IMG/VR virus record: IMGVR_UViG_3300030117_002779
Location: 19,610 to 40,108 of that record
Length of the DNA stretch: 20,499 nt
Direction: 5' to 3' (one strand)
From: a virus
The notes beneath the pieces are model-generated. The model saw nothing but the letters and a program-made list of their open reading frames with translations. It did no database searches and had not been told where the DNA came from. The position numbers and the translations under genes are program-made. Positions 7,370 through 20,381 of this stretch are shown piece after piece (the stretch's first letter is position 1; each line of letters begins with the position of its first letter).

Positions 7370-7432
7370 TGACAAGGGCACACATATACAGAGGAGCATT
7401 AACCAGGTATGTGTGTCCTTGTCATTTTTTTT
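7370..7432 (+). terminator. Very long intrinsic terminator with a GGA-bearing loop
   Basis: The arms TGACAAGGGCACACATA (7370-7386) and TATGTGTGTCCTTGTCA (7408-7424) form 17 pairs with a single G-U wobble, followed by eight T (7425-7432). This is an unusually stable terminator after the first gene, so downstream genes need read-through, antitermination or a new promoter. The 21-base loop contains ACAGAGGAGC, close to the CsrA recognition element ACARGGA. Confidence 0.85.
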
Positions 7433-7492
7433 ATTTTGTTAACCAGTGGGTAAGAGCATGCATGCATTGCCTACTATCATGAGGAGAAAATT

Positions 7493-7750
7493 ATGACTAT
7501 TGCATATAAAGCTGGTCTGTTCGTAGCGTCAATCGGCAGGTCAACAGCTAAACTGACGGCGGGTATCACAACTGAATTCGCGAAAGGTATGGCGGCTGGT
7601 GCTCAAGGTGCACCGAAGGTATTACCACGAGACGAGGAGTCCGGAGTCGATGAGCAACTCAGGGAAGAGTTTGCTAAGGAGAACGACGACTATCATCAAC
7701 CTGAATTGCCAGGTATGGATGTAGCTCAACCGGAGAAGGCAAATGGGTAG
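7493..7750 (+). CDS. Hypothetical protein, 85 residues
   Basis: The ATG at 7493 follows GAGGAG (7481-7486). The first 40 residues are Ala/Gly/Thr-rich with a basic N-terminus (MTIAYKAGLFVASIGRSTAK) and could form an amphipathic or weakly membrane-attached helix. The C-terminal half is acidic (DEESGVDEQLREEFAKENDD) and ends PELPGMDVAQPEKANG. The LPGMD end is a common tail in phage proteins of unknown role. No family is recognised. It overlaps the next micro-ORF by eight bases. Confidence 0.72.
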   Translation: MTIAYKAGLFVASIGRSTAKLTAGITTEFAKGMAAGAQGAPKVLPRDEESGVDEQLREEFAKENDDYHQPELPGMDVAQPEKANG

Positions 7751-7805
7751 ATATGTACTACATTTGCCCGAGGAACTTCTTCAAGTCCTTTTTGGAGAAG
7801 TGTGA
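7743..7805 (+). CDS. Candidate 20-residue coupled micro-ORF
   Basis: MGRYVLHLPEELLQVLFGEV is encoded between two genes. Its ATG has GGAGAAGG (7732-7739) at ideal distance, and its TGA overlaps the ATG of the next gene (TGATG at 7803-7807). The peptide is an acidic amphipathic helix. The double junction suggests either a real microprotein or a leader that couples translation of the membrane protein behind it. It is too short to support by homology. Confidence 0.4.
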   Translation: MGRYVLHLPEELLQVLFGEV

Positions 7806-7999
7806 TGGGTATCGTGGAATATGCAGCACTAGCTGTCATCGTGTATATCGTAGCCAATGTCATCTTGAAGGTGACATTGGTTGTCGGTTATTTCTATGTC
7901 TTTAAAATGTTCTTTGAAAAAGACAAGGTTGAAGAAGACCAATCATCTAAAAGTCATGTGAGGGTTAACGGTCCTGACATCGACGACCTTCCATTCTAA
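7805..7999 (+). CDS. Small membrane protein, 64 residues
   Basis: One or two hydrophobic segments (about residues 4-38, EYAALAVIVYIVANVILKVT then LVVGYFYVFKMFF) are followed by a charged cytosolic-type tail (EKDKVEEDQSSKSHVRVNGP). GGAG at 7794-7797 favours the ATG at 7805 over the GTG at 7802. No family is recognised. Small membrane proteins of this kind among early phage genes are often involved in host membrane changes or superinfection exclusion, but nothing here proves that. The transcript ends at the terminator that follows. Confidence 0.75.
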   Translation: MGIVEYAALAVIVYIVANVILKVTLVVGYFYVFKMFFEKDKVEEDQSSKSHVRVNGPDIDDLPF

Positions 8000-8006
8000 G
8001 TATATC

Positions 8007-8039
8007 GGGGGCGTCCAGCCCCCTTCTTTGTTTTTTTTC
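8007..8039 (+). terminator. Intrinsic terminator after the early genes
   Basis: GGGGGC-GTCCA-GCCCCC (8007-8023) is a perfect 6-pair GC stem with a 5-base loop, followed by TTCTTTGTTTTTTTTC. It closes the 7493-7999 unit, just before the gene-free repeat region. Confidence 0.92.
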
Positions 8040-8046
8040 TTTTGAC

Positions 8047-8077
8047 TACTATCATACTATCATGTGCCTACTATCAT
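8047..8077 (+). repeat. TACTATCAT direct repeats
   Basis: TACTATCAT occurs at 8047-8055, 8055-8063 and 8069-8077. The last copy is part of a 13-base element TGCCTACTATCAT (8065-8077) that is repeated exactly at 7468-7480, directly before the ribosome site of the 7493 gene. Both places lie just after a terminator and before a new unit, so the element may be a promoter or activator site specific to this phage. Confidence 0.5.
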
Positions 8078-8124
8078 CACCGTGCCGAGCGGACGCGAGC
8101 ATCGGTGCATGCACACCTGGAGAA

Positions 8125-8407
8125 TGGTTCCATTTGTTCCACGACTCTTGCCCATGTGGAACCAGTTCATGGAACCATGCCCGTTGCTTTGTTTGTGCAG
8201 GTTTGAGCGGGATAACCATGCCCGCGGTTCCAGTGTTCCACGTAGAACAAAGAGGTATGCGTAAGGCCGACCGTGAACCGTGGTTGTATAATATAGTTTT
8301 ACAGAACATTTTTATATGGAACCATGGAACCAAGGACGAACATACGCGGTTTTACGCTGTTTTTTGTGTTCCACGATATGTGGAACCAAGTGGAACCGGT
8401 GGAACCA
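8125..8407. repeat. TGGAACC repeat array, candidate replication origin or binding array
   Basis: Twelve copies of TGGAAC(C/A) lie within 283 bases. Forward copies start at 8157, 8170, 8317, 8325 (directly abutting), 8381, 8391 and 8400. Inverted copies start at 8125, 8135, 8226, 8234 and 8367. Several pair as inverted repeats (8135 with 8157; 8367 with 8381). A second direct repeat AACCATGCCCG is at 8173-8183 and 8214-8224, and an AT-rich stretch (8285-8315, with TATAAT at 8287-8292) divides the array into two clusters. The stretch has no convincing gene: its long ORFs consist of the repeat read in frame. Iteron-like arrays beside AT-rich DNA suit a replication origin. A repressor or partition array is the alternative. 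Confidence 0.65.
8234..8249. other. parS-like palindrome
   Basis: TGTTCCACGTAGAACA differs at two central positions from the chromosomal parS form TGTTCCACGTGAAACA bound by ParB. The half-site TGTTCCACG also occurs at 8135-8143 and 8367-8375. No ParA or ParB gene is in the window, so the site could only work with a host or out-of-window protein. It may equally be the best-conserved member of the local repeat family. Confidence 0.35.
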
Positions 8408-8566
8408 CAACGCACGGGTCGCATTCGCGACCTTCCTCATAATTTTATACATGAATTATATTATTTATCGTCAGCATGTGGACGTAGTAAAGCACATGTC
8501 GGTGTCTCCGGAACGACCACGCTGGGATGAGAAGTCCAGCACCCATTACATTTTTAGGAGGTTATT
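8408..8566 (+). promoter_or_regulatory. Leader region of the 8567 operon
   Basis: This stretch holds no gene. It has a perfect hairpin GGTCGC-ATTC-GCGACC (8417-8432), an AT-rich block around 8438-8470 (CATGAATTATATTATTTATC) that could contain a -10 element, a short hairpin GCTGG/CCAGC (8521-8525 with 8536-8540), and AGGAGG at 8554-8559 before the next gene. A promoter is expected here because the previous unit is terminated at 8039, but I cannot place a clear -35. Confidence 0.35.
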
Positions 8567-8992
8567 ATGGGATTAGACGTATATGCAGGGTTTATGCACC
8601 CTAAGAAAGAGCAACCAGAAAACGTTGTTGATATCAGAGAAGATATTAACGACAGAATGGAGGCTCCATACTACTGGCGTAAGCACGCTAGATTACAACA
8701 ATATATGACTGAGCTGTGGCACAAGAAGAATGGCACAGAAATGCTCGGTATTATGGGACCAGATGGGTTCAACGGTGGCGATGTCTTAAAGCTCACTGAA
8801 GAAGACATTCTTGACTTGAAAGAAAAGGTTGAGTCAGGAACTCTGCCTTTTTGTCCGGACGGTTTCTTTTGGGGACAGCAGTTTCAAGAACAAGCTGCAC
8901 TTGAGTACAAAGACCAAGACTTGAAGTTCTGCGAGAGTGCTCTTGAATGGCTTAGACAAGGTAAAGAGGTGTGGTATGAATCATCTTGGTAA
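8567..8992 (+). CDS. Conserved phage protein of unknown function (MGLD.. / YWRKH family)
   Basis: This protein of 141 residues has strong AGGAGG eight bases before the ATG. Landmarks are MGLDVYAG at the start, APYYWRKHARLQQYMTELWH (about 33-52), GFNGGDVLKLTEEDILDLKE, then PDGFFWGQQF and the end CESALEWLRQGKEVWYESSW. The combination of YWRKH, a FN-x-x-x-V-x-L-T-x-x-D segment, FFxG and a terminal Y-x-SxW recalls small phage proteins that databases often label phosphoglycerate kinase. That label is almost certainly wrong, since the protein is far too short for PGK. The true role is unknown. Its end overlaps the next start by 17 bases. Confidence 0.8.
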   Translation: MGLDVYAGFMHPKKEQPENVVDIREDINDRMEAPYYWRKHARLQQYMTELWHKKNGTEMLGIMGPDGFNGGDVLKLTEEDILDLKEKVESGTLPFCPDGFFWGQQFQEQAALEYKDQDLKFCESALEWLRQGKEVWYESSW

Positions 8993-9182
8993 TCTTGGTA
9001 AAAAAACGATTGACGAAGTCCGCAAAGAGGGTGATTGGCAAGAGATGGACAGTAAATCAAGTGTAGCTTGGTTTGGTGGTAGGACACACGCTCAAATAGC
9101 CGAATGGTTGCCCTCTGATGTCTTAGAAAATAATCTATTGGAAGATATAGATTTTCTTGTTATTGGTTGGAGGAAAGGCTAA
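8976..9182 (+). CDS. Hypothetical protein, 68 residues
   Basis: The ATG at 8976 has GAGGTG (8965-8970) upstream and lies inside the end of the previous gene. The protein reads MNHLGNLGKKTIDEVRKEGD, then WQEMDSKSSVAWFGGRTHAQ and ends FLVIGWRKG. It is small, mixed in charge and has a Trp-rich core. No family is recognised. Its stop overlaps the next ATG (TAATG), so it is coupled on both sides. A longer version starting at a GTG at 8937 is unlikely because it lacks a ribosome site. Confidence 0.7.
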   Translation: MNHLGNLGKKTIDEVRKEGDWQEMDSKSSVAWFGGRTHAQIAEWLPSDVLENNLLEDIDFLVIGWRKG

Positions 9183-9340
9183 TGGAGATTCTTAAAGAAT
9201 ACTGCACGTCAGTTCTAGTGGGTATTGGCGTGCTTTTCTTGCTATTTGGCATTGCCACTAGCATACATTACTCACTGATTCTTGTTGGTGTCGCTATCGG
9301 CATCAGCTCAATATTGTATTTACTATGGAGGTTATTATGA
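9182..9340 (+). CDS. Small membrane protein, 52 residues
   Basis: The sequence MEILKEYCTSVLVGIGVLFL then LFGIATSIHYSLILVGVAIG and ISSILYLLWRLL makes two transmembrane helices with a short turn near Ser-Ile-His-Tyr. The start overlaps the upstream stop (TAATG) and the stop overlaps the next ATG (ATGA). The two coupled junctions and the clean hydrophobic pattern argue for a real gene. Its role is unknown; it could form a complex with the two membrane proteins that follow. Confidence 0.7.
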   Translation: MEILKEYCTSVLVGIGVLFLLFGIATSIHYSLILVGVAIGISSILYLLWRLL

Positions 9341-9492
9341 ATACAACTAGCGTGGTGAGTGCCCTGACAACGGCACTTTGGATACTAATCGAGCTTATAC
9401 AATTTGCGTATATGGCTTATCTTGCATGGAGGAACAGAGATGTTGCTAATCGGAATACTTTCAGCACTAGGTCTACTAGTCCTTGCACTTAA
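9337..9492 (+). CDS. Small membrane protein, 51 residues
   Basis: MNTTSVVSALTTALWILIEL then IQFAYMAYLAWRNRDVANRN holds one transmembrane helix (about 8-30) and a short basic, Ser/Thr-rich tail. GGAGG (9328-9332) precedes the ATG, which overlaps the upstream stop. The last 53 bases overlap the next gene in another frame, so the C-terminal tail is under dual coding. The small size, single helix with an Arg-containing end and membrane neighbours would suit a holin-like or accessory lysis role, but no lysin is nearby. The call is left open. Confidence 0.62.
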   Translation: MNTTSVVSALTTALWILIELIQFAYMAYLAWRNRDVANRNTFSTRSTSPCT

Positions 9493-9775
9493 AGCTGGCG
9501 GTCGTAAAACAATCGGTCACGATGTGTTTGTTGATGTACTTATCACAGTCACATTGATGATTTGTTTCTACGGCACGTTCAGCGGTATGGCGGCAGCCAT
9601 GATTGGCGGTTTGTGTGCTTCACTTGTTTTGTTCTTTATGAAGAAGACAATGGTGCATGAGAAACTGACAATTGAAAAAGAAGACAAGGTTATTATGAAT
9701 AACCCTGTGAAACTAACTGTACCTACAGTCAAACCAAAATGGAAGATTGTAGAACCTGATTGGAGGAATAATTAA
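9440..9775 (+). CDS. Membrane protein, 111 residues
   Basis: Three hydrophobic segments are visible: about residues 2-18 (LLIGILSALGLLVLALK), 29-45 (FVDVLITVTLMICFYGT) and 48-66 (GMAAAMIGGLCASLVLFFM). A soluble tail follows that ends VKLTVPTVKPKWKIVEPDWR. GGAGG seven bases before the ATG at 9440 fixes the start; a TTG at 9404 lacks such support. No family is recognised. It ends three bases before the AAA+ gene, so the membrane group is in one operon with the ATPase cassette. Confidence 0.75.
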   Translation: MLLIGILSALGLLVLALKAGGRKTIGHDVFVDVLITVTLMICFYGTFSGMAAAMIGGLCASLVLFFMKKTMVHEKLTIEKEDKVIMNNPVKLTVPTVKPKWKIVEPDWRNN

Positions 9776-9777
9776 TT

Positions 9778-10797
9778 ATGAGAACGATAAATCCTGTTGG
9801 TCTTGTTACAAGACTTAACAAAGCGGTTACTAAGAACCGACCTGTGATGATTTGGGGCAGCCCTGGTATTGGTAAATCTGATATACCAAGGCAAGTCGCA
9901 GAATCTAGAGGTATCGGACTGTTAGACTTTCGTGCTAACTTGTTCGACCCAGTTGACGTGCGTGGCGTACCATACGTTAGGCAGATAAAAGATACCGGTA
10001 AAAGATTTACATCTTGGGCTGTACCAGATGTATTTCCAATCGCAGAACGCGATGGCGAACGTGGTATTTTGTTCATTGACGAACTACCCGCTTCACCACC
10101 TGCAACGCAGAATGCGTTCTTGCAACTGATATTGGACAGAAGAGTCGGTGACTATGAACTACCAAGTGGTTGGACTATTGTTGCTGCTGGTAACAGACTC
10201 ACTGATGGTGCGTCAGTTTATCAAATGACAAGTGCACTGCGTAACAGGTTTGCTCACTTTGAACTTGAGCCAACTTTGGACGATTGGGTGACTTGGGCTC
10301 ACCAAAACGATATCAATACAGATGTCATTGGTTTTATCCAGTATCGACCACAGTTGCTCAACAGTTTTGACGCTGATGAGTACGCTTTCCCAACTCCACG
10401 TACGTGGGCTATGGTGAGCAATCATATCGACAATACAACAGACGACGAAGAAGGTTTATTCTTTGATGTCGCTTCTTTGGTTGGCGATGGTCCAGCTGGT
10501 GAGTTTGTAGCATTCAAAGAGATTGCTAACAAACTGCCTAACATTGATGAGGTTATTCAAGACCCGTCAAAATACAAGAAAGATGATAATCCAGCTTTAC
10601 TCTATGCTTTTGCTAACGCTCTTGCAGCTAGAGCAGATGATGACAAGATGGAGAGCATCATGAAACTTGCTAAGAAGATACCACTTGAGTTCCAAGTTGT
10701 GCTCGTGCGTAGTTCGATTGCCGCAGGCGGTGACGATGTACGTAAGCACAATGATGTACGTAAGTGGGTTAAAGAAAATGCTAACGTTGTATTATAG
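9778..10797 (+). CDS. MoxR-type AAA+ ATPase
   Basis: This 339-residue protein has Walker A GSPGIGKSD (27-35), Walker B ILFIDE (97-102), sensor 1 VAAGN (135-139, N139) and an arginine-finger region ALRNRFAHFE (R155, R157). The DELPASPP stretch after Walker B and the FRANLFDPVDVRGVPY segment before it are typical of the MoxR branch, whose members act with vWA-domain partners as chaperone-like remodelling machines. A vWA protein is encoded two genes downstream, as in cellular MoxR operons. AGGAGG lies before the following gene, 10806. The target in this phage is unknown; capsid or tail maturation or remodelling of a host complex are possibilities. The molecular class is clear. Confidence 0.93.
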   Translation: MRTINPVGLVTRLNKAVTKNRPVMIWGSPGIGKSDIPRQVAESRGIGLLDFRANLFDPVDVRGVPYVRQIKDTGKRFTSWAVPDVFPIAERDGERGILFIDELPASPPATQNAFLQLILDRRVGDYELPSGWTIVAAGNRLTDGASVYQMTSALRNRFAHFELEPTLDDWVTWAHQNDINTDVIGFIQYRPQLLNSFDADEYAFPTPRTWAMVSNHIDNTTDDEEGLFFDVASLVGDGPAGEFVAFKEIANKLPNIDEVIQDPSKYKKDDNPALLYAFANALAARADDDKMESIMKLAKKIPLEFQVVLVRSSIAAGGDDVRKHNDVRKWVKENANVVL

Positions 10798-10805
10798 GAG
10801 GATAT

Positions 10806-11489
10806 ATGAAAACAGTTAGATTGTCGGAGCAGCTTAAACGAGATATTCGTAGAAAAGCTGAAGAGAAGTTCGAAAAAGTTAATCCAAAGCAGACCTATCC
10901 AGAGGATGGGGCTGTTCTTTTGACGCGTTACAACCTTCAGGACAAAATCAACAAGACTACCAAAAGTTTCAAAGAGATTTGGCCTGATATGAAGATTGGC
11001 ACGCGAAGTGTTGAACGATTGCGTATCAAGTCAAGTCTTATGGTTGATAAGGATGATGTATGGGACTCTGAGAAAGAGGCTTACGTTACGAAAAAAGTAG
11101 AGGATGAGTTTGAGTACACTTTACATGTGCCCGTTACTCAATTCCCAGACTTTTTGGTTGAGTACAGAGAGTTCTCACTTGCTGTACCAAATAACGATGA
11201 AACTTTTCTAGCTTGTTATCAAGTTGAAGTACACAACGAAGACTTAGACCGTAAGAGAAGAGCGTTCACCAACAACATTCAGAATGTTTTGGATAAGTTC
11301 CATACGCTTAACCAATTGCTCAAGGCAGACCCATCTCTCAAAGATTTGGTGCCCAGCGATAGGTTACAGAAAATGTATGAGAAGGACGAGCGTGGAGAAC
11401 GAGCAAAGGAACAGCAAGAACTTGCAGATACAGAGCTACAAGATTTACGTGAAGTCTTACTTGAAGATAAATTACTTGGAGATGACTAA
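10806..11489 (+). CDS. Hypothetical protein between the ATPase and vWA genes
   Basis: This 227-residue protein has TAGGAGG upstream of the ATG. The N-terminus is basic (LSEQLKRDIRRKAEEKFEKV), the middle is beta-prone (YTLHVPVTQFPDFLVEYREF), and the last third is a charged helix rich in Glu/Lys/Leu (about 150-227), likely coiled-coil. I do not recognise a family. Its fixed place between the MoxR ATPase and the vWA protein, with a TAATG overlap into the latter, suggests a subunit or adaptor of the same machine. Confidence 0.8.
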   Translation: MKTVRLSEQLKRDIRRKAEEKFEKVNPKQTYPEDGAVLLTRYNLQDKINKTTKSFKEIWPDMKIGTRSVERLRIKSSLMVDKDDVWDSEKEAYVTKKVEDEFEYTLHVPVTQFPDFLVEYREFSLAVPNNDETFLACYQVEVHNEDLDRKRRAFTNNIQNVLDKFHTLNQLLKADPSLKDLVPSDRLQKMYEKDERGERAKEQQELADTELQDLREVLLEDKLLGDD

Positions 11490-12598
11490 TGAATCAATTG
11501 TATATTAAAGCTAGGTCAAGACTTGTTCTTGACAATCCATTCTTTGGTACGCTTTGTCTACGGCTAAAACCAGTAGAGCGAGATGATATGCCAACCGGTG
11601 CAACCGATGGCGTGCACTTGTTCTACAACCCAAAGTGGTTCGAGAAACTTTCAGAGATACAGCGTATCGGTTTCTTGGCTCACGAGGTTATGCATGTTGT
11701 GCTATTGCACATCACACGTAGACAAGAGCGTGGTCCTGAGAAATGGAACGTAGCTTGTGACTATGCAATCAATAATTATCTCATTGCAGAAAATTTTATT
11801 TTGCCAGATGGTGGTCTTATAGATGAGCAGTACAACGACATGACTGCAGAGGCCATCTACAATCTATTACCTGAACCTCCAAAAGGTTGGGCCCAAATGG
11901 CATTGGATTCTGGCAAGTGTGGTGGCGTGCTCGACCACCCAGACCAAGATGGCACCGGTGGTACAGCCGGTGCTATTGAGGCTGAACTTACTGTCGCTAT
12001 TAACCAAGCGGCAGAGAGTGCCAAAGCACACGGTAAACTTTCTGCAAACATGGAGAGTCTGATAACAGATATTGTTACGCCTAAGGTTGATTGGGCGTCA
12101 GTCTTGGCTAGGTTCATGAGAGCCAATGCTAAGTCTGATTTCACATGGATTAGACCAAACAGACGCTTTATTGCATCTGGTATGTATCTACCATCTTTGT
12201 GGAATCCAGCACTTGAAGAGATTGCTATTATTGCAGACACGTCGGGTTCTATTATCGATGATGTTCTTACTCAGTTTACTACAGAAACATCTGCTATTTT
12301 GCGTGATTTGAATCCACAAAAGATTCATTTCTTGCAATGCGATGCAGAGGTCAACGAAGTTACTGAGTACACAAGAGAGTCGTTACCACTTAAAGTAACG
12401 TACAAAGGTAGAGGCGGAACTCGTTTCAGTCCAGCCTTTGATTACATTAATGAGCATTTGCCTCATATCAGTTGTGCTGTTTATTTGACTGATATGTGTG
12501 CAGATGACTTTGGCGATACTCCACCATACGATGTATTGTGGATATCAACAGAAAAAGACCGGACTGCACCATTTGGTGAAGTCGTACATATAAACTAG
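11489..12598 (+). CDS. vWA-domain protein with HExxH metallopeptidase-like N-terminus
   Basis: This 369-residue protein has two parts. The N-terminal half has the zinc-peptidase motif HEVMH (65-69) in GFLAHEVMHVVLLHITRR, followed by WNVACDYAINNYLI and LPDGGLIDEQYNDMTAEAIY, the pattern of the DUF2201-type putative metallopeptidase domain. The C-terminal half is a von Willebrand A fold with a MIDAS: D250-x-S252-x-S254 in IADTSGS, a GGT motif (T311) and LTD (D335). Such proteins are partners of MoxR ATPases. Proteolytic activity is unproven, and the HExxH might be structural. The start overlaps the upstream stop (TAATG). Confidence 0.9.
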   Translation: MNQLYIKARSRLVLDNPFFGTLCLRLKPVERDDMPTGATDGVHLFYNPKWFEKLSEIQRIGFLAHEVMHVVLLHITRRQERGPEKWNVACDYAINNYLIAENFILPDGGLIDEQYNDMTAEAIYNLLPEPPKGWAQMALDSGKCGGVLDHPDQDGTGGTAGAIEAELTVAINQAAESAKAHGKLSANMESLITDIVTPKVDWASVLARFMRANAKSDFTWIRPNRRFIASGMYLPSLWNPALEEIAIIADTSGSIIDDVLTQFTTETSAILRDLNPQKIHFLQCDAEVNEVTEYTRESLPLKVTYKGRGGTRFSPAFDYINEHLPHISCAVYLTDMCADDFGDTPPYDVLWISTEKDRTAPFGEVVHIN

Positions 12599-12609
12599 AG
12601 GAGGAAAAT

Positions 12610-12909
12610 ATGGCGGATGAGAAAGATAAATGCGTTGAATCTTGGCAACAAGATAAATGCGAGAAATGCGGAGCGGATGTAAAAACCGCAGACGTATTTG
12701 AAGAGGCGATACATGCACAGGTTCATATGTGCCAACAGGCAGGAATGCCACCTATGGATGTTATCATTACAGGGCTGGGGTATTTCATGAAGATGAATTA
12801 TTTTTGTGCCCCTGATGCTAAAACAGCTGATGAGCTTATAGATGATATGAAAAAATTCTATAGAGAAAATCAAGACACATCACATAAGGAGGTGAAGTTA
12901 AATGGCTAG
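12610..12909 (+). CDS. Hypothetical protein with a zinc-ribbon-like start
   Basis: This 99-residue protein follows GAGGAGG at good distance. The N-terminus has C-x8-CEKCGAD and then an H-x-x-x-H-x-C arrangement (HAQVHMC), so up to four or five metal ligands lie in the first 40 residues. This resembles a zinc finger of mixed CCHC type. The rest (FMKMNYFCAPDAKTADELID) is helical. The role is unknown; the position right behind the vWA gene places it in the same operon. It overlaps the next gene by eight bases. Confidence 0.72.
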   Translation: MADEKDKCVESWQQDKCEKCGADVKTADVFEEAIHAQVHMCQQAGMPPMDVIITGLGYFMKMNYFCAPDAKTADELIDDMKKFYRENQDTSHKEVKLNG

Positions 12910-15052: not shown

Positions 15053-15210
15053 GCTGTGAACACAACGAACGATTATTAGAACTTTACTTTGACCAAGGTA
15101 AAGAAAACGGACTTTCTAATCTAGACGCAGAGGCATATGCCAAAATGATGTTAGAACACGAAGGTCAACCACCAGCTAATATAATGCAACAATTCATGGA
15201 GGGTTTGTAA
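15049..15210 (+). CDS. Hypothetical protein, 53 residues
   Basis: MSCEHNERLLELYFDQGKEN begins a small acidic helical protein that ends PPANIMQQFMEGL. The GGGGGAGG run upstream (15035-15042) gives a strong ribosome site. The ATG overlaps the previous stop and the TAA overlaps the polymerase ATG (TAATG), so it probably couples polymerase translation. The family is not recognised. Confidence 0.7.
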   Translation: MSCEHNERLLELYFDQGKENGLSNLDAEAYAKMMLEHEGQPPANIMQQFMEGL

Positions 15211-17006
15211 TGCAAAAAATATATTTAGATTTTGAGACATACTTTGACACTAACTATACTCTTACTAAAATGTCTACCGCTCAGTATATCAATGACGAGC
15301 AGTTTAAGGTTTGGGGCGTAGGGATAAAAGTAGATGATAATGAGACCGAGTGGTATTCAGAAGATGAAACCCCGGCCATATTGGAACAAATCGATTGGGC
15401 CAACACCGCCCTCGTTTGCCACAATACATTATTTGATGCTTATATTCTTACACAGCATTTCGGATATAAGCCGTCGTACTATTACGACACAGCGGCAATG
15501 AGCCGTGGCTTGTATCCGAACATGTCTGCCAGACTCAAAGATTGTTGCGTGCGTGAATTTCCATCCGACGATAGCATGCGTAAGGGAGAAGAATTGGTAT
15601 CAGCAAAAGGTATACGCGACTTAGACCCAGCAACAGATAACACGATCGGACAATATTGTGTACAGGACGTGGATCTAACGTACGCACTTTTCCAAAGTTA
15701 CATTAAAAACTTTCCGTGCAGTGAGCTAGATCTAATCGATCTCACGACACGTATGTTCGTAGAACCAAAGTTGTTAATGGACCGTGGACTTTTGGAAGAT
15801 TACAAAGAAGAAATGGCAAAACGTGCAACGGAGGCAATCGCTGCTTCGGGAGTAACACGAGAAGTTCTTGCGTCTCAACAAAAGTTCGCTAAGCACTTAG
15901 AGTCATTAGATATTGTAGTGCCAACTAAAAAATCCCCACGCACAGGTGAACAGATACCCGCTTTTGGCAAAAACGATCCGGCTTACATTCAAATGTGCAA
16001 CTTGTACCCAGAACACCGTGCGTTGTGGGACGCCAGGGAAGTAGTAAAGTCACGCATTGACGAAACCAGAGCCCAACGTTTCATTGATGCATGCAACCCT
16101 GACGGTACGTTTAGCATACCGCTGCGTTACTATGCGGCACACACCGGGCGTTTCGGTGGCATGGATAAAATCAACTTACAAAACCTGCCACGTGGATCTA
16201 AACTACGACACGCAATCATGGCTCCAGAAGGTCAAGCACTCTACATTGCTGACCTGTCTAACATCGAGGCACGAATGCTAGCATGGATGTCTAATCAAGA
16301 AGATTTACTTCGTGCATTTGCAGAAGGCCGTGACGTGTATTCGGAGTTTGCATCTGAGATATATGGTCGTACGATTACTAAAGAGGACAAGTTAGAAAGG
16401 TATGTCGGTAAAACCGCAGTTCTTGGATTGGGGTACGGCATGGGACACCAAAGATACAAAGACACCTTAAAATCAGGTTCTCCTTCAGTAGACATCGGTG
16501 ATCAGACAGCACAGTCTATTGTTAATCAATACAGAACTATGTATCCAAACATCCCTGATTTATGGAGTAGCATGAAAGGATTACTATGGGAAATGCTTTC
16601 ACCTAAGTCTTATGGCACTCATTATGGACCATTAATAATTCGTGCAAATGGGCTGGAGCTACCTAACGGTATGCAACTCAAATACCCTAGCTTAAGACAT
16701 GAGGCCGGTGAGTTTATCTACACAACAGGTAAAGAATACATACGTACGCACGGACCTAGACTTACAGAAAATGTAGTTCAGGCACTTGCACGTATTGTTA
16801 TTACTGACCAAATGTTAGACATCCAAAGTTTACCTGAAGTTGACATAGTCATGCAGGTACACGACGAAATTATAGCTATCGGTTCTAATATTGGTTCAGA
16901 TGTTATACTAAATAAAATACTAACTATAATGAGAACACCACCAGCTTGGTGCAAAGATTTACCGTTAGACGCAGAGGCAAGTGTAAGTTCTATTTATGAC
17001 AAATAA
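15210..17006 (+). CDS. DNA polymerase, family A, with 3'-5' exonuclease
   Basis: This 598-residue replicative polymerase has an N-terminal DnaQ-type proofreading domain: DFE (D7, E9), HNTLFD (D76) and YCVQD (Y149, D153). The polymerase domain has motif A YIADLSNIEARM (D348, E353), motif B from R397 through K401 to YG (409-410), and motif C MQVHDE (H551, D552). There is no 5'-3' exonuclease, as in T7-like polymerases. In motif B the residue equivalent to E. coli Phe762 is Leu405. The absence of a CxxC DnaJ-like insert distinguishes it from some other marine phage polymerases. The gene ends inside the csrA start (11-base overlap). Confidence 0.96.
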   Translation: MQKIYLDFETYFDTNYTLTKMSTAQYINDEQFKVWGVGIKVDDNETEWYSEDETPAILEQIDWANTALVCHNTLFDAYILTQHFGYKPSYYYDTAAMSRGLYPNMSARLKDCCVREFPSDDSMRKGEELVSAKGIRDLDPATDNTIGQYCVQDVDLTYALFQSYIKNFPCSELDLIDLTTRMFVEPKLLMDRGLLEDYKEEMAKRATEAIAASGVTREVLASQQKFAKHLESLDIVVPTKKSPRTGEQIPAFGKNDPAYIQMCNLYPEHRALWDAREVVKSRIDETRAQRFIDACNPDGTFSIPLRYYAAHTGRFGGMDKINLQNLPRGSKLRHAIMAPEGQALYIADLSNIEARMLAWMSNQEDLLRAFAEGRDVYSEFASEIYGRTITKEDKLERYVGKTAVLGLGYGMGHQRYKDTLKSGSPSVDIGDQTAQSIVNQYRTMYPNIPDLWSSMKGLLWEMLSPKSYGTHYGPLIIRANGLELPNGMQLKYPSLRHEAGEFIYTTGKEYIRTHGPRLTENVVQALARIVITDQMLDIQSLPEVDIVMQVHDEIIAIGSNIGSDVILNKILTIMRTPPAWCKDLPLDAEASVSSIYDK

Positions 17007-17241
17007 AAACTTAATATTAACTAGAAAAAAAGGTGAAAAAATTATCGTGCATGATTCAGCATCTGAGCTGCAGTTATGCACGATAACAGTCACCCAAATT
17101 ACTAACAAACAATGCAAGTTAGGTTTTGAGGCTGACCCAACTATACGCATTGATAGAGAAGAAGTATACTTAAATAAGGAGGATAAAAATGCAGACCACA
17201 TTTCTCAAAGCCAAAAAACCACTGGCAAAGGAAATAACTAA
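16996..17241 (+). CDS. csrA: CsrA-family RNA-binding translational regulator
   Basis: This 81-residue protein starts with NLILTRKKGEKIIV (5-18), the N-terminal strand of CsrA, and continues to TIRIDREEVYLNK (49-61), the C-terminal strand and helix start. Compared with E. coli CsrA, the RNA-contact arginines R6 and R44 correspond to R10 and R54, and the LTR and REE(I/V)Y signatures are kept. One to three residues are inserted in the loops, and a polar tail (62-81) is added. The family binds GGA in loops or leaders of mRNA as a dimer and changes translation or stability. The start overlaps the polymerase stop and the end overlaps the primase by 53 bases, so it is made with the replication proteins. 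Confidence 0.92.
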   Translation: MTNKNLILTRKKGEKIIVHDSASELQLCTITVTQITNKQCKLGFEADPTIRIDREEVYLNKEDKNADHISQSQKTTGKGNN

Positions 17242-19675
17242 AGACGGCTCAAAGCCCTATCCTTTAGTTAAAAACTTTACATCAGAAACACACGATATAT
17301 CTTTAGACAAAAAAGGTTTTACTAAATTATTTCGTGTAATTACAACAGCCGCCCAGCAAGGGGCGTGTATGCACAAGGGCCCACTTAAACGTGCCCTTAA
17401 AGATGAGCCCCGGGCTTTTATGTCCGATCGGTCTACACCAACAGAGTTGTTAGTCCTAGATATAGACGGGCTTCGTGCAACTCCAGGGGATGACATTCAA
17501 GCTATGGCGGATAAAATCGTGTTACAACTACCTGATATATTTCATGATGTTTCGTACATAGCACAAGCTAGTGCATCTTTAGGTGTCAAAGAAAATCAAA
17601 TATCACTACATTTGTTTTTTCTCATGGATATGCCAGTGCACCCAAAAACTCTAAAAGATTATCTTCGTATGTTAAATTATGAATGTGATTTTTTAGCTGA
17701 ACAAATTACTTTATCTGCTAACGGTCAAAGTCTTTCGTACATACTTGACCCGTCGGTTGCAGATAACAGTAAGTTAATTTATATTGCACCACCAAAATTT
17801 ACTGGCGTGCAAGATCCCTATCCTAACGGAAGGTTTGTCAAAGTTGACCGTGGTTCGCCACTTCTGGAAATCTCCTCATCTTTAATTGGTGTTAACCCTG
17901 AAAAGGTGCACACACTTGGTTTGCAGATTAAAGATAATCTTAGGAAAAAGAACAGTCTCCCTAAGAAAGCCGGAAAGGTAACCACGGTTAACGTTGCTGG
18001 TGAGTCGCACGAAGTGCTACAAAATCCGGACAAGATGACCATCCAAATCTCTCGTGTGTCCGAACCTTATGTAAATTGTAATGTAAATGACGGCGACAGT
18101 GGTGCGTATTTTTTCGTGCTAACAAACCCACATTACATGTACAACTTTAAGGGCGAACCTATATGGGAGATAGAAAAAGCAGACCCAGACTTTTATAGAA
18201 GTATCTTCGAAATCTTTGCGGATAAGATAGATGAAAAGTCAAAACTAAAACCAATAGCGTTACGTGACTTCTACACTGACACTTACTATAACGGAGTATA
18301 TGATGAAACTAAAAAACAATTCACTGACGAGTACCCTCTCACACCTACTACAAAAAACTCTATCAACGATTTCCTACGCTCTCATAGTAGGCCTAATCTT
18401 GATTATATTCCTGATGCCAGGGTCACTTTTGATCCTAGCAGCAATGTCGGCATACAGCTCGACGAAGCTCCGTACTACGTAAATCTATATCGTCGTACAT
18501 CTTACATGCTGCGTGCAGAGGAGAATGTAAAAGAACTCTCCTACGGTGAAGCTATCGAAATACAAAAAGTTGCACCAAACTTTTACAAACTCTTGATGCA
18601 CGCTCTCGGTAATGGCAAACCAGAGTTTGAACACTTTATAAACTGGCTAGCTTATATTTACCAAAATAAACGTAAAACAATGACAGCTTGGATATTCACA
18701 GGTGTACCTGGCACTGGTAAAGGTTTATTCGTGCATAGAGTCCTTAAGCGTCTTTTTGGCGAAGCACAAGCACCAATGCGTTCTTTAGAAAATATTGAAG
18801 AACAATTTAATCTTTATATGAGAACTGCGTTATTTCTTGTGGTTGATGAGTTTCGTATGGCAGATTCAGGTTCTGTAGGTAAAATGGCTGATAAGTTAAA
18901 ACACCAAATAACAGAACCAAATCTAACTATTAGAGCTATGCGTACCAACCAGATAGAGCTGCCTTCTTACACGAACTTTATATTTCTTACTAACAGAGCA
19001 GACGCTGTCAAGATAGAAGATTCAGACAGGCGTTACAATGTTGCTCCACGTCAAGAAGAAAAACTAGAAGTCGTGCATCCAGAGCTCTTAGAAAATTTGT
19101 CCGTATTAGAAAAAGAACTTTACATCGTGGCCGGTGTGCTCCAGAAGTTCCAGGTAAATGCACGTATGGCCCATACTGCATTAGAAAACGATGCTAAGAA
19201 AGAAATGAAAGAAGTATCTATGTCGGTCATCGAAGAAGCGGCACATGCGATACGCACACGAAACCTAGAATATTTTACAGATGTTTTAGATATTCCGCTT
19301 ACAAATACTTTTGATGCTGGCGGGATTAGCACGGCACAAAGATATGTAAAAGATTGGCTTTCTACTTTAGGTAATGAAGTTGTTATACCACTAGCACATT
19401 TTAAAGTTGTGTATGACGCACTTACAGACAGTCGTAACACACTGTCGCAAAGAGAGTTTTCTAAACGAATGTCTAGACTAAATATAAAAACTGCACGTAA
19501 ACGTGTTAGCAAAGATCGTGCAGCTGGAATCCCCCGGGGGGTTGTCTTGACATGGAAATTAGACAATAATGTTCGTGAACAATTAATTAAGGAACATTTC
19601 GACGAACGGGATTTAGAACTACTTAATGGAGAAGCTAACACAACCCAATCGTCCAGACCTAATCTCAACGCTTGA
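17189..19675 (+). CDS. Primase-helicase (AEP-like primase plus SF3-type helicase)
   Basis: This 828-residue protein has AGGAGG before its ATG (17177-17182). The N-terminal part has LLVLDIDG (D91, D93) and QISLHLFFLMD (S139, H141), which fit the hhhDhD and s-x-H motifs of archaeo-eukaryotic primases (inference). The C-terminal part is a hexameric-type helicase with Walker A GVPGTGKG (505-512), Walker B LVVDEF (about 550-556), a FLTNRADAV segment equal to superfamily 3 motif C, and DRRYNV with an arginine-finger candidate; this matches the DUF5906/NrS-1-like phage helicase group. It should unwind and prime at the fork for the family A polymerase. The last 50 bases overlap the nuclease gene. Confidence 0.9.
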   Translation: MQTTFLKAKKPLAKEITKDGSKPYPLVKNFTSETHDISLDKKGFTKLFRVITTAAQQGACMHKGPLKRALKDEPRAFMSDRSTPTELLVLDIDGLRATPGDDIQAMADKIVLQLPDIFHDVSYIAQASASLGVKENQISLHLFFLMDMPVHPKTLKDYLRMLNYECDFLAEQITLSANGQSLSYILDPSVADNSKLIYIAPPKFTGVQDPYPNGRFVKVDRGSPLLEISSSLIGVNPEKVHTLGLQIKDNLRKKNSLPKKAGKVTTVNVAGESHEVLQNPDKMTIQISRVSEPYVNCNVNDGDSGAYFFVLTNPHYMYNFKGEPIWEIEKADPDFYRSIFEIFADKIDEKSKLKPIALRDFYTDTYYNGVYDETKKQFTDEYPLTPTTKNSINDFLRSHSRPNLDYIPDARVTFDPSSNVGIQLDEAPYYVNLYRRTSYMLRAEENVKELSYGEAIEIQKVAPNFYKLLMHALGNGKPEFEHFINWLAYIYQNKRKTMTAWIFTGVPGTGKGLFVHRVLKRLFGEAQAPMRSLENIEEQFNLYMRTALFLVVDEFRMADSGSVGKMADKLKHQITEPNLTIRAMRTNQIELPSYTNFIFLTNRADAVKIEDSDRRYNVAPRQEEKLEVVHPELLENLSVLEKELYIVAGVLQKFQVNARMAHTALENDAKKEMKEVSMSVIEEAAHAIRTRNLEYFTDVLDIPLTNTFDAGGISTAQRYVKDWLSTLGNEVVIPLAHFKVVYDALTDSRNTLSQREFSKRMSRLNIKTARKRVSKDRAAGIPRGVVLTWKLDNNVREQLIKEHFDERDLELLNGEANTTQSSRPNLNA

Positions 19676-20381
19676 GGTCACGGAGGACTTAGAACTGGGA
19701 GACATTCCAGCTTGGAGCTATTCGGCTTTGAAAACATTTGAGTCGTGCGCTTACAGATCTTACATTGCAAAAGTGAAACGAATACAAGAAGACTTCGGGC
19801 CCGCTGCGGCCCGTGGCACAGCAATACATGAAGAGGCAGAAAAGTACGTCAACGGACAACTTGGCGAACTACCTGATTCTTTACGTAAGTTTGATACTAA
19901 ATTCAAACAATTGCGTGAGTTATTTGTTGATGCAAAAGTAGAACTTGAAGGCGACTGGGGTTTTACACGGTCGTGGGAAACGTGCGATTGGATGGCCCCT
20001 GATGTCTGGGCACGTATAAAACTAGACGCGTTTGTACACCAGGATGACACTTCAGCACGAGTTATTGACTACAAAACAGGCAAACAAATAGGTAATGAAA
20101 TTGCACACAGCCAACAAGCACTTATATATGCTATTGGTAGTTTTTTTAGATATCCATTATTACAGTTTGTCAAAACAGAAATATGGTATTTAGATCATGG
20201 TACAACTTCAGAACAAACATACACACGTGATGAAGCTATGATTTTTATGCCAAAACTACATGAGAGAGCTATTGCTATGACTACTGCTACAGAGTTCCCA
20301 CCGAACCCAAGTCAGTACAATTGTAAATGGTGTACTTATGGCAAAGGTTTAGATCCCCATTGTCAATGGGCTATAACCTGA
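19626..20381 (+). CDS. Cas4/RecB-like PD-(D/E)XK nuclease with probable Fe-S cluster
   Basis: In this 251-residue protein the nuclease core shows GTAIHEEAE (H68, E72), RIKLDAF (D134), VIDYKTGK (D148, K150) and QQALIY (Q164, Y168), the order of RecB-family exonucleases. Cysteines at 41 (FESCAYRSY) and at 233, 236 and 246 (CKWCTYGKGLDPHC) form the set that holds a 4Fe-4S cluster in Cas4 and AddB. It probably processes DNA ends during replication or recombination. No CRISPR genes are nearby, so an adaptation role is unlikely. The ATG lies inside the primase end without a strong ribosome site, suggesting coupling. Confidence 0.9.
   Translation: MEKLTQPNRPDLISTLEVTEDLELGDIPAWSYSALKTFESCAYRSYIAKVKRIQEDFGPAAARGTAIHEEAEKYVNGQLGELPDSLRKFDTKFKQLRELFVDAKVELEGDWGFTRSWETCDWMAPDVWARIKLDAFVHQDDTSARVIDYKTGKQIGNEIAHSQQALIYAIGSFFRYPLLQFVKTEIWYLDHGTTSEQTYTRDEAMIFMPKLHERAIAMTTATEFPPNPSQYNCKWCTYGKGLDPHCQWAIT

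Follow-up and report, generated by a model that had tools for sequence, protein, structure and literature searches.

Organization of the locus

The DNA analysed here (the window, 20,499 nucleotides) forms the right-hand portion of a virus record of 40,108 bases (IMG/VR IMGVR_UViG_3300030117_002779, positions 19,610 to 40,108) in which P22-type portal, terminase and capsid genes are found. Four genes of its plus strand concern us: polA, encoding a family A DNA polymerase (15210..17006; PF00476, E = 3.3e-29; phrog_17, 6e-74); csrA, encoding an 81-residue CsrA-family protein (16996..17241, ATG to TAA); a DUF5906 primase-helicase gene (17189..19675; PF19263, 2.4e-18; phrog_24712, 9e-157; phrog_1156, DNA primase); and, next in the conserved order, the gene of a PD-(D/E)XK (RecB-like) exonuclease (19626..20381; PF12705, 5.7e-18). 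The csrA product, translated from its ORF, reads MTNKNLILTRKKGEKI...IRIDREEVYLNKED...

A first-pass annotation had csrA overlapping both of its neighbors, and the ORF coordinates bear this out, with 11 nt shared with polA and 53 nt with the primase-helicase gene. At the upstream junction (16996..17006, plus strand) the MTN(K) codons of csrA overprint the polymerase C-terminus YDK*, which is read from TAT GAC AAA TAA in the other frame. Among 109 distinct relatives, about 101 have a csrA start that overlaps or abuts the polA stop (-11 to +11 nt), an arrangement that suggests translational coupling.

Some other features of the polymerase and of the record can be mentioned here. The window polA has the motif KTAVLGLGYG, which, read by eye, places leucine at the equivalent of E. 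coli Pol I position 762. The leucine type of polymerase has been linked to temperate phages (PMC6302109); in contrast, 12 records of relatives, 47-64 kb in length, yield no Pfam integrase match. An AAA ATPase (9778-10797; phrog_1297) and a DUF2201 metallopeptidase/VWA protein (11489-12598) of the window make up a MoxR-VWA-like pair that is well kept in relatives (VWA 58-72%), and a 227-aa protein encoded at 10806-11489 matches Nmad5 (nucleotide modification associated domain) at a sub-threshold level. On the minus strand of the record's left half (L050), positions 2996-12652 encode a protein of 3218 aa that has a YAcAr/SLOG domain (4.5e-12) and matches NADAR weakly; it resembles the large multi-domain 'polyvalent' phage proteins, which are presumed to be delivered together with the genome.

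A divergent member of the CsrA family

The csrA product matches the Pfam CsrA profile (PF02599) at E = 1.7e-12 (47.5 bits, with a cut-off of 27) and no other Pfam family at E<=0.001; in the PHROG search it matches phrog_9500, 'CsrA-like regulator', at 1.6e-11. PDB sequences retrieved with the protein or its profile are exclusively CsrA, RsmA, RsmE, RsmF and RsmN, and PF02599 is matched at E<=0.01 by all 76 aligned relatives. Scores against the NCBIfam equivalog models are 36.5 bits (cut-off 70.1; TIGR00202) and 41.2 bits (cut-off 73; NF002469). These models thus place the protein as a divergent family member rather than as a csrA ortholog.

Structure prediction, which had been proposed as a check on the family assignment, has been carried out and gives a monomer model that resembles CsrA chains. 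The AlphaFold2 model built with 76 relatives has pLDDT 93-97 over residues 11-60 (it supersedes an earlier one from 21 sequences, with pLDDT 69). The best 13 Foldseek matches in the PDB are all CsrA, RsmA or RsmE chains, the closest being 2bti_A (TM 0.85 by target, rmsd 1.5 Å), and TM reaches 0.85 to RsmA chains; Foldseek E-values are weak for so short a protein, the best being 0.006. The structural matches include the CsrA-protein complexes 5dmb and 5z38, and no RegA chain is among the listed ones. The CsrA/RsmA fold consists of five β strands and a C-terminal helix in an intertwined dimer, with strands β1 and β5 pairing in the dimer only; the likeness of the phage protein is that of a monomer model.

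The conserved core of csrA extends over 17011-17178 (plus strand; residues 6-61). What follows, residues 62-81 (17179..17241, plus strand), is a polar tail that had been listed as a functional difference from host CsrA. That distinction does not survive comparison with relatives, most of which encode a CsrA of about 61-64 aa whose frame closes ahead of primase. Loss of the csrA stop, seen in the window and in a few further subclades, lets the frame continue into the primase gene, so that the tail is mostly the primase 5' end translated out of frame; when the stop of an untailed relative (L059) is ignored, translation gives NENNIFESKQTTCQRN..., which resembles the tails. Since it is read-through and present in few subclades, the tail needs no function of its own, and it was dropped as a candidate functional domain.

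The overlap of start and stop codons, and the loss of the stop in some subclades without apparent harm, raise the question of whether csrA might be kept mainly as a spacer that couples polA and primase translation, its product mattering little. We consider this very improbable, because a spacer would not preserve a specific fold: csrA is under purifying selection, R6 and R44 (E. coli numbering) are invariant, and the CsrA match is found in 76/76 aligned members. For the window gene and its close relatives (the closest informative pairs) dN/dS is 0.15-0.23; the median over 1267 pairs is 0.33, with pairs of high dS giving only rough values. The Pfam and PHROG matches, purifying selection and a constant location in all relatives that extend far enough argue against a chance ORF, and confirm at the level of sequence analysis that phage csrA is a real gene and a genuine relative of CsrA.

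Distribution and gene order

With the csrA protein as query, 48 viral relatives were retrieved; polA-csrA-primase is the gene order in each, with the exonuclease gene following where the contig is long enough. To avoid the bias of a csrA-based search, loci were retrieved again by similarity of their primases, and prevalence and conservation were recounted on these. All 159 primase-retrieved loci that reach upstream (134 distinct sequences) have csrA between polA and primase; the remaining 8 begin within the primase gene. A scan of a remote branch, with a query primase ~42% identical to that of the window, found csrA in 48/48 loci, together with 11 cut at primase. Every non-carrier of csrA is thus a contig that is cut at primase. 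(Most primase scans took the best 80 relatives per query, and universality here refers to the loci retrieved.) The pooled set, with the window included, comprises 207 loci, which have between them 155 distinct csrA sequences at the DNA level and 144 at the protein level, contigs being partly shared between scans. Each of the 12 records of 47-64 kb encodes exactly one CsrA.

In this group of uncultured phages csrA is a constant member of the replication operon (polA-csrA-primase/helicase-exonuclease). Its presence at the same place in all retrieved loci, down to ~42% primase identity, implies a core, vertically inherited gene and not an occasional cargo of host origin. Aeromonas phage phiA008 and Pseudomonas phage KPP25, which are the nearest isolates (primase ~30%), both lack csrA, and the isolate collection searched contains no phage belonging to the csrA clade. 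(The single hit in that collection, MT836129.1, 'Bacteriophage sp.', L054, was rejected as a phage relative: its ORFs resemble a bacterial flagellar operon, with flgL-, fliW- and fliD-like genes around csrA.) The strict three-gene signature polA-csrA-DUF5906 primase can serve for spotting the clade in metagenomes.

Conservation of the RNA-binding face and a clade signature

Residue conservation was counted over the 144 distinct CsrA proteins in E. coli numbering, set by alignment with E. coli CsrA. L2, R6 and R44 are invariant (144/144), and A36 (143/144), E46 (142/144), V42 (as Ile; 142/144) and L4 (139/144) nearly so. The window protein has L8, R10, R54 and E56 as equivalents of the RNA-binding residues L4, R6 and R44 and of the partners of the R6-E46 salt bridge. 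The original reading of R10 and R54 as R6 and R44 of E. coli CsrA is upheld by the alignment, and the LTR and REEVY signatures are both found. Ten residues have been singled out as having the strongest effects on RNA binding in E. coli and C. jejuni CsrA (PMC6692469), and 7 of the 9 positions conserved at >=96.5% in the clade belong to this set (hypergeometric P = 4e-5). Sequence comparison supports strong constraint on the RNA-binding face of the clade CsrA. (The invariant N-terminus MTNKNLIL was rejected as evidence of selection, having itself been the search pattern; it also overprints polA.)

This distribution of conserved positions bears on the suggestion that the CsrA fold works here mainly through protein contacts, with polymerase or primase for example as partner and RNA binding secondary, somewhat in the manner of CsrA-FliW or CesT. 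Strict adjacency to two replisome genes fits such a role, as does the occurrence of CsrA-protein complexes (5dmb, 5z38) among the structural matches. However, conservation is highest at the RNA-binding positions and not on some new surface, and we consider a principal role of this kind unlikely.

Elsewhere the clade has departed from bacterial CsrA. His43 is replaced by Asp in 139 of 144 proteins and Val34 by Phe in 142, P37 is mostly D or E, and the turn between β2 and β3 is lengthened (by about four residues in the clade and six in the window). Position 43 is H or Y in the nine Marinimicrobia CsrA and two isolate-phage CsrA that were extracted for comparison. The His43 to Asp change, by adding negative charge on an RNA-binding strand, could alter or weaken RNA recognition. 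At first the gene had been regarded as the phage version of a host regulator. The observations fit better with a phage lineage that is old and derived, D43 and F34 being absent from the 9 bacterial (a small sample) and 2 isolate-phage CsrA compared. A tree separates phage from bacterial CsrA with support 0.81 (with ~50 sites and 12 outgroups, it is too small to find a donor).

RNA targets and the role of phage CsrA

The primase Shine-Dalgarno sequence, AAGGAGGATAAAA (17174..17188, plus strand), lies within csrA and contains GGA, which makes it a candidate CsrA site. Of 89 distinct primase leaders, 98% have a GGA between -22 and -3, as an ordinary Shine-Dalgarno element, and A.GGA occurs in 57% of primase leaders vs 24-50% for four other genes, which does not discriminate. 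The leaders of the pol, primase, exo, AAA and VWA genes have no conserved second (non-Shine-Dalgarno) GGA site, and the scan of replication-gene leaders found no target RNA of the phage CsrA.

Nor was a CsrB-like decoy (an sRNA with many GGA hairpin loops) found: scanning the window with Rfam gave no meaningful match. A non-coding element at 8042-8550 has many TGGAACCA, TGGTTCCA and TGTTCCAC repeats in both orientations, with spacing kept in one subclade (L056, L074, L098, L097, L075, L067, L080, L108 and, partly, L051). Its TGGAACC repeats were considered as a decoy and rejected: they point both ways along the DNA, other subclades with csrA lack them, and Rfam is silent on them. The repeats resemble DNA sites, making the element a candidate replication origin or operator. 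One of the relatives sharing it (L056, positions 1-1181) is identical to the window at 7820-9000 (100%), yet its CsrA/primase region has diverged (94% identity), which suggests recent recombination between close relatives.

The main rival to a phage-internal role is that CsrA acts chiefly on host mRNAs, for example repressing CRISPR-Cas or other defense mRNAs or shifting carbon metabolism, and owes its place in the operon to early need only. There are precedents: cas mRNAs are repressed by RsmA, whose phage homologues have been proposed as possible anti-CRISPRs (PMC8450108); RsmQ, a plasmid CsrA homologue, globally controls host translation (PMC9928087). The conserved RNA-binding face of the clade protein would suit such a function too. 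On the other hand, csrA is never lost or moved across deep divergence, unlike host-range-dependent cargo genes, and its D43/F34 signature is absent from the bacterial CsrA extracted. The one clade member that is binned in a Marinimicrobia genome (L051) is weakly linked to that bin, which has no CsrA except the phage's own, so that a host Csr network for the phage to take over may not exist. (The bin was not accepted as evidence that Marinimicrobia are the host: a close primase is found in no other of 245 Marinimicrobia genomes.) Action mainly on the host is possible, but we find it rather doubtful.

The favored reading, which we hold with about as much conviction as reserve, is by analogy: the protein would be a phage-lineage CsrA acting as a RegA-like translational regulator of phage mRNAs. 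Its translation would be coupled to that of the polymerase, and it would dimerize as other CsrA proteins do, bind GGA-containing ribosome-binding sites and repress or re-time the translation of early and replication mRNAs, possibly including those of its own operon. It would thus fill, in this clade, the role of the unrelated RegA of T4-like phages; effects on host mRNAs may be additional. The idea that a phage CsrA might time the phage's own gene expression was already raised in the first-pass annotation, and it fits the universal synteny and tight coupling to polA, but gene order by itself does not show function. The fuller proposition, a clade-wide obligate CsrA, co-translated with DNA polymerase, that is a dedicated switch for the phage's own mRNAs, a Csr-based counterpart of RegA with an RNA-recognition surface changed at D43, is offered tentatively, as something that we are somewhat more inclined to doubt than to assert.

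Relation to known CsrA proteins and to RegA

With bacterial CsrA and RsmA (E. coli CsrA, P. aeruginosa RsmA, P. fluorescens RsmE) the clade protein has in common its predicted monomer fold, residues R6, R44, L2, L4, A36 and E46, and the RNA-binding strands β1 and β5. It differs in H43D, V34F, the mostly acidic (D/E) position 37, the longer β2-β3 turn, its sub-equivalog scores and its location between polA and primase.

Phage-encoded CsrA itself has been published: csrA was tabulated in 30 phages, including marine metagenome viruses, in 2020 (PMC7366521), and a 2021 survey of GenBank and IMG/VR dealt with phage RsmA (PMC8450108), so that members of the clade may already be in those tables. What is new is the universal place of csrA in the replication operon together with its derived signature. 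No earlier report of a fixed polA-csrA-primase order was found in the open-access literature (subscription papers and preprints lie outside this search), and a survey of polA neighborhoods in virioplankton does not mention csrA (PMC6302109). The CsrA/RsmA proteins of isolate phages (Pseudomonas, Vibrio and jumbo Xanthomonas phages; PMC7366521, PMC8450108) belong to the same family and are likewise phage-encoded. Unlike those of the clade, the listed ones for the most part closely resemble host CsrA (57-100% identity to that of E. coli in most), and in three examined the gene lies among small genes or beside exonuclease/HNH genes, not between polA and primase. RsmQ (PMC9928087) is likewise a CsrA-family protein of a mobile element with a global effect on translation, but host behavior has been shown to be its target, and its context is a plasmid, not the core of a replication operon.

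Phage csrA genes have so far been read as host-borrowed manipulators; one that is universal, syntenic with polA and primase, and derived directs attention to Csr use internal to the phage. RegA of the T4-like phages is the obvious comparison. Its gene belongs to the core replication cluster, and the protein competes with ribosomes at the initiation regions of ~30 mRNAs (PMC3014915). RegA has an unrelated fold, AU-rich targets and binds as a monomer; the likeness to the clade CsrA, also a small and presumably RNA-binding protein encoded in a core replication cluster, is one of position and proposed role only.
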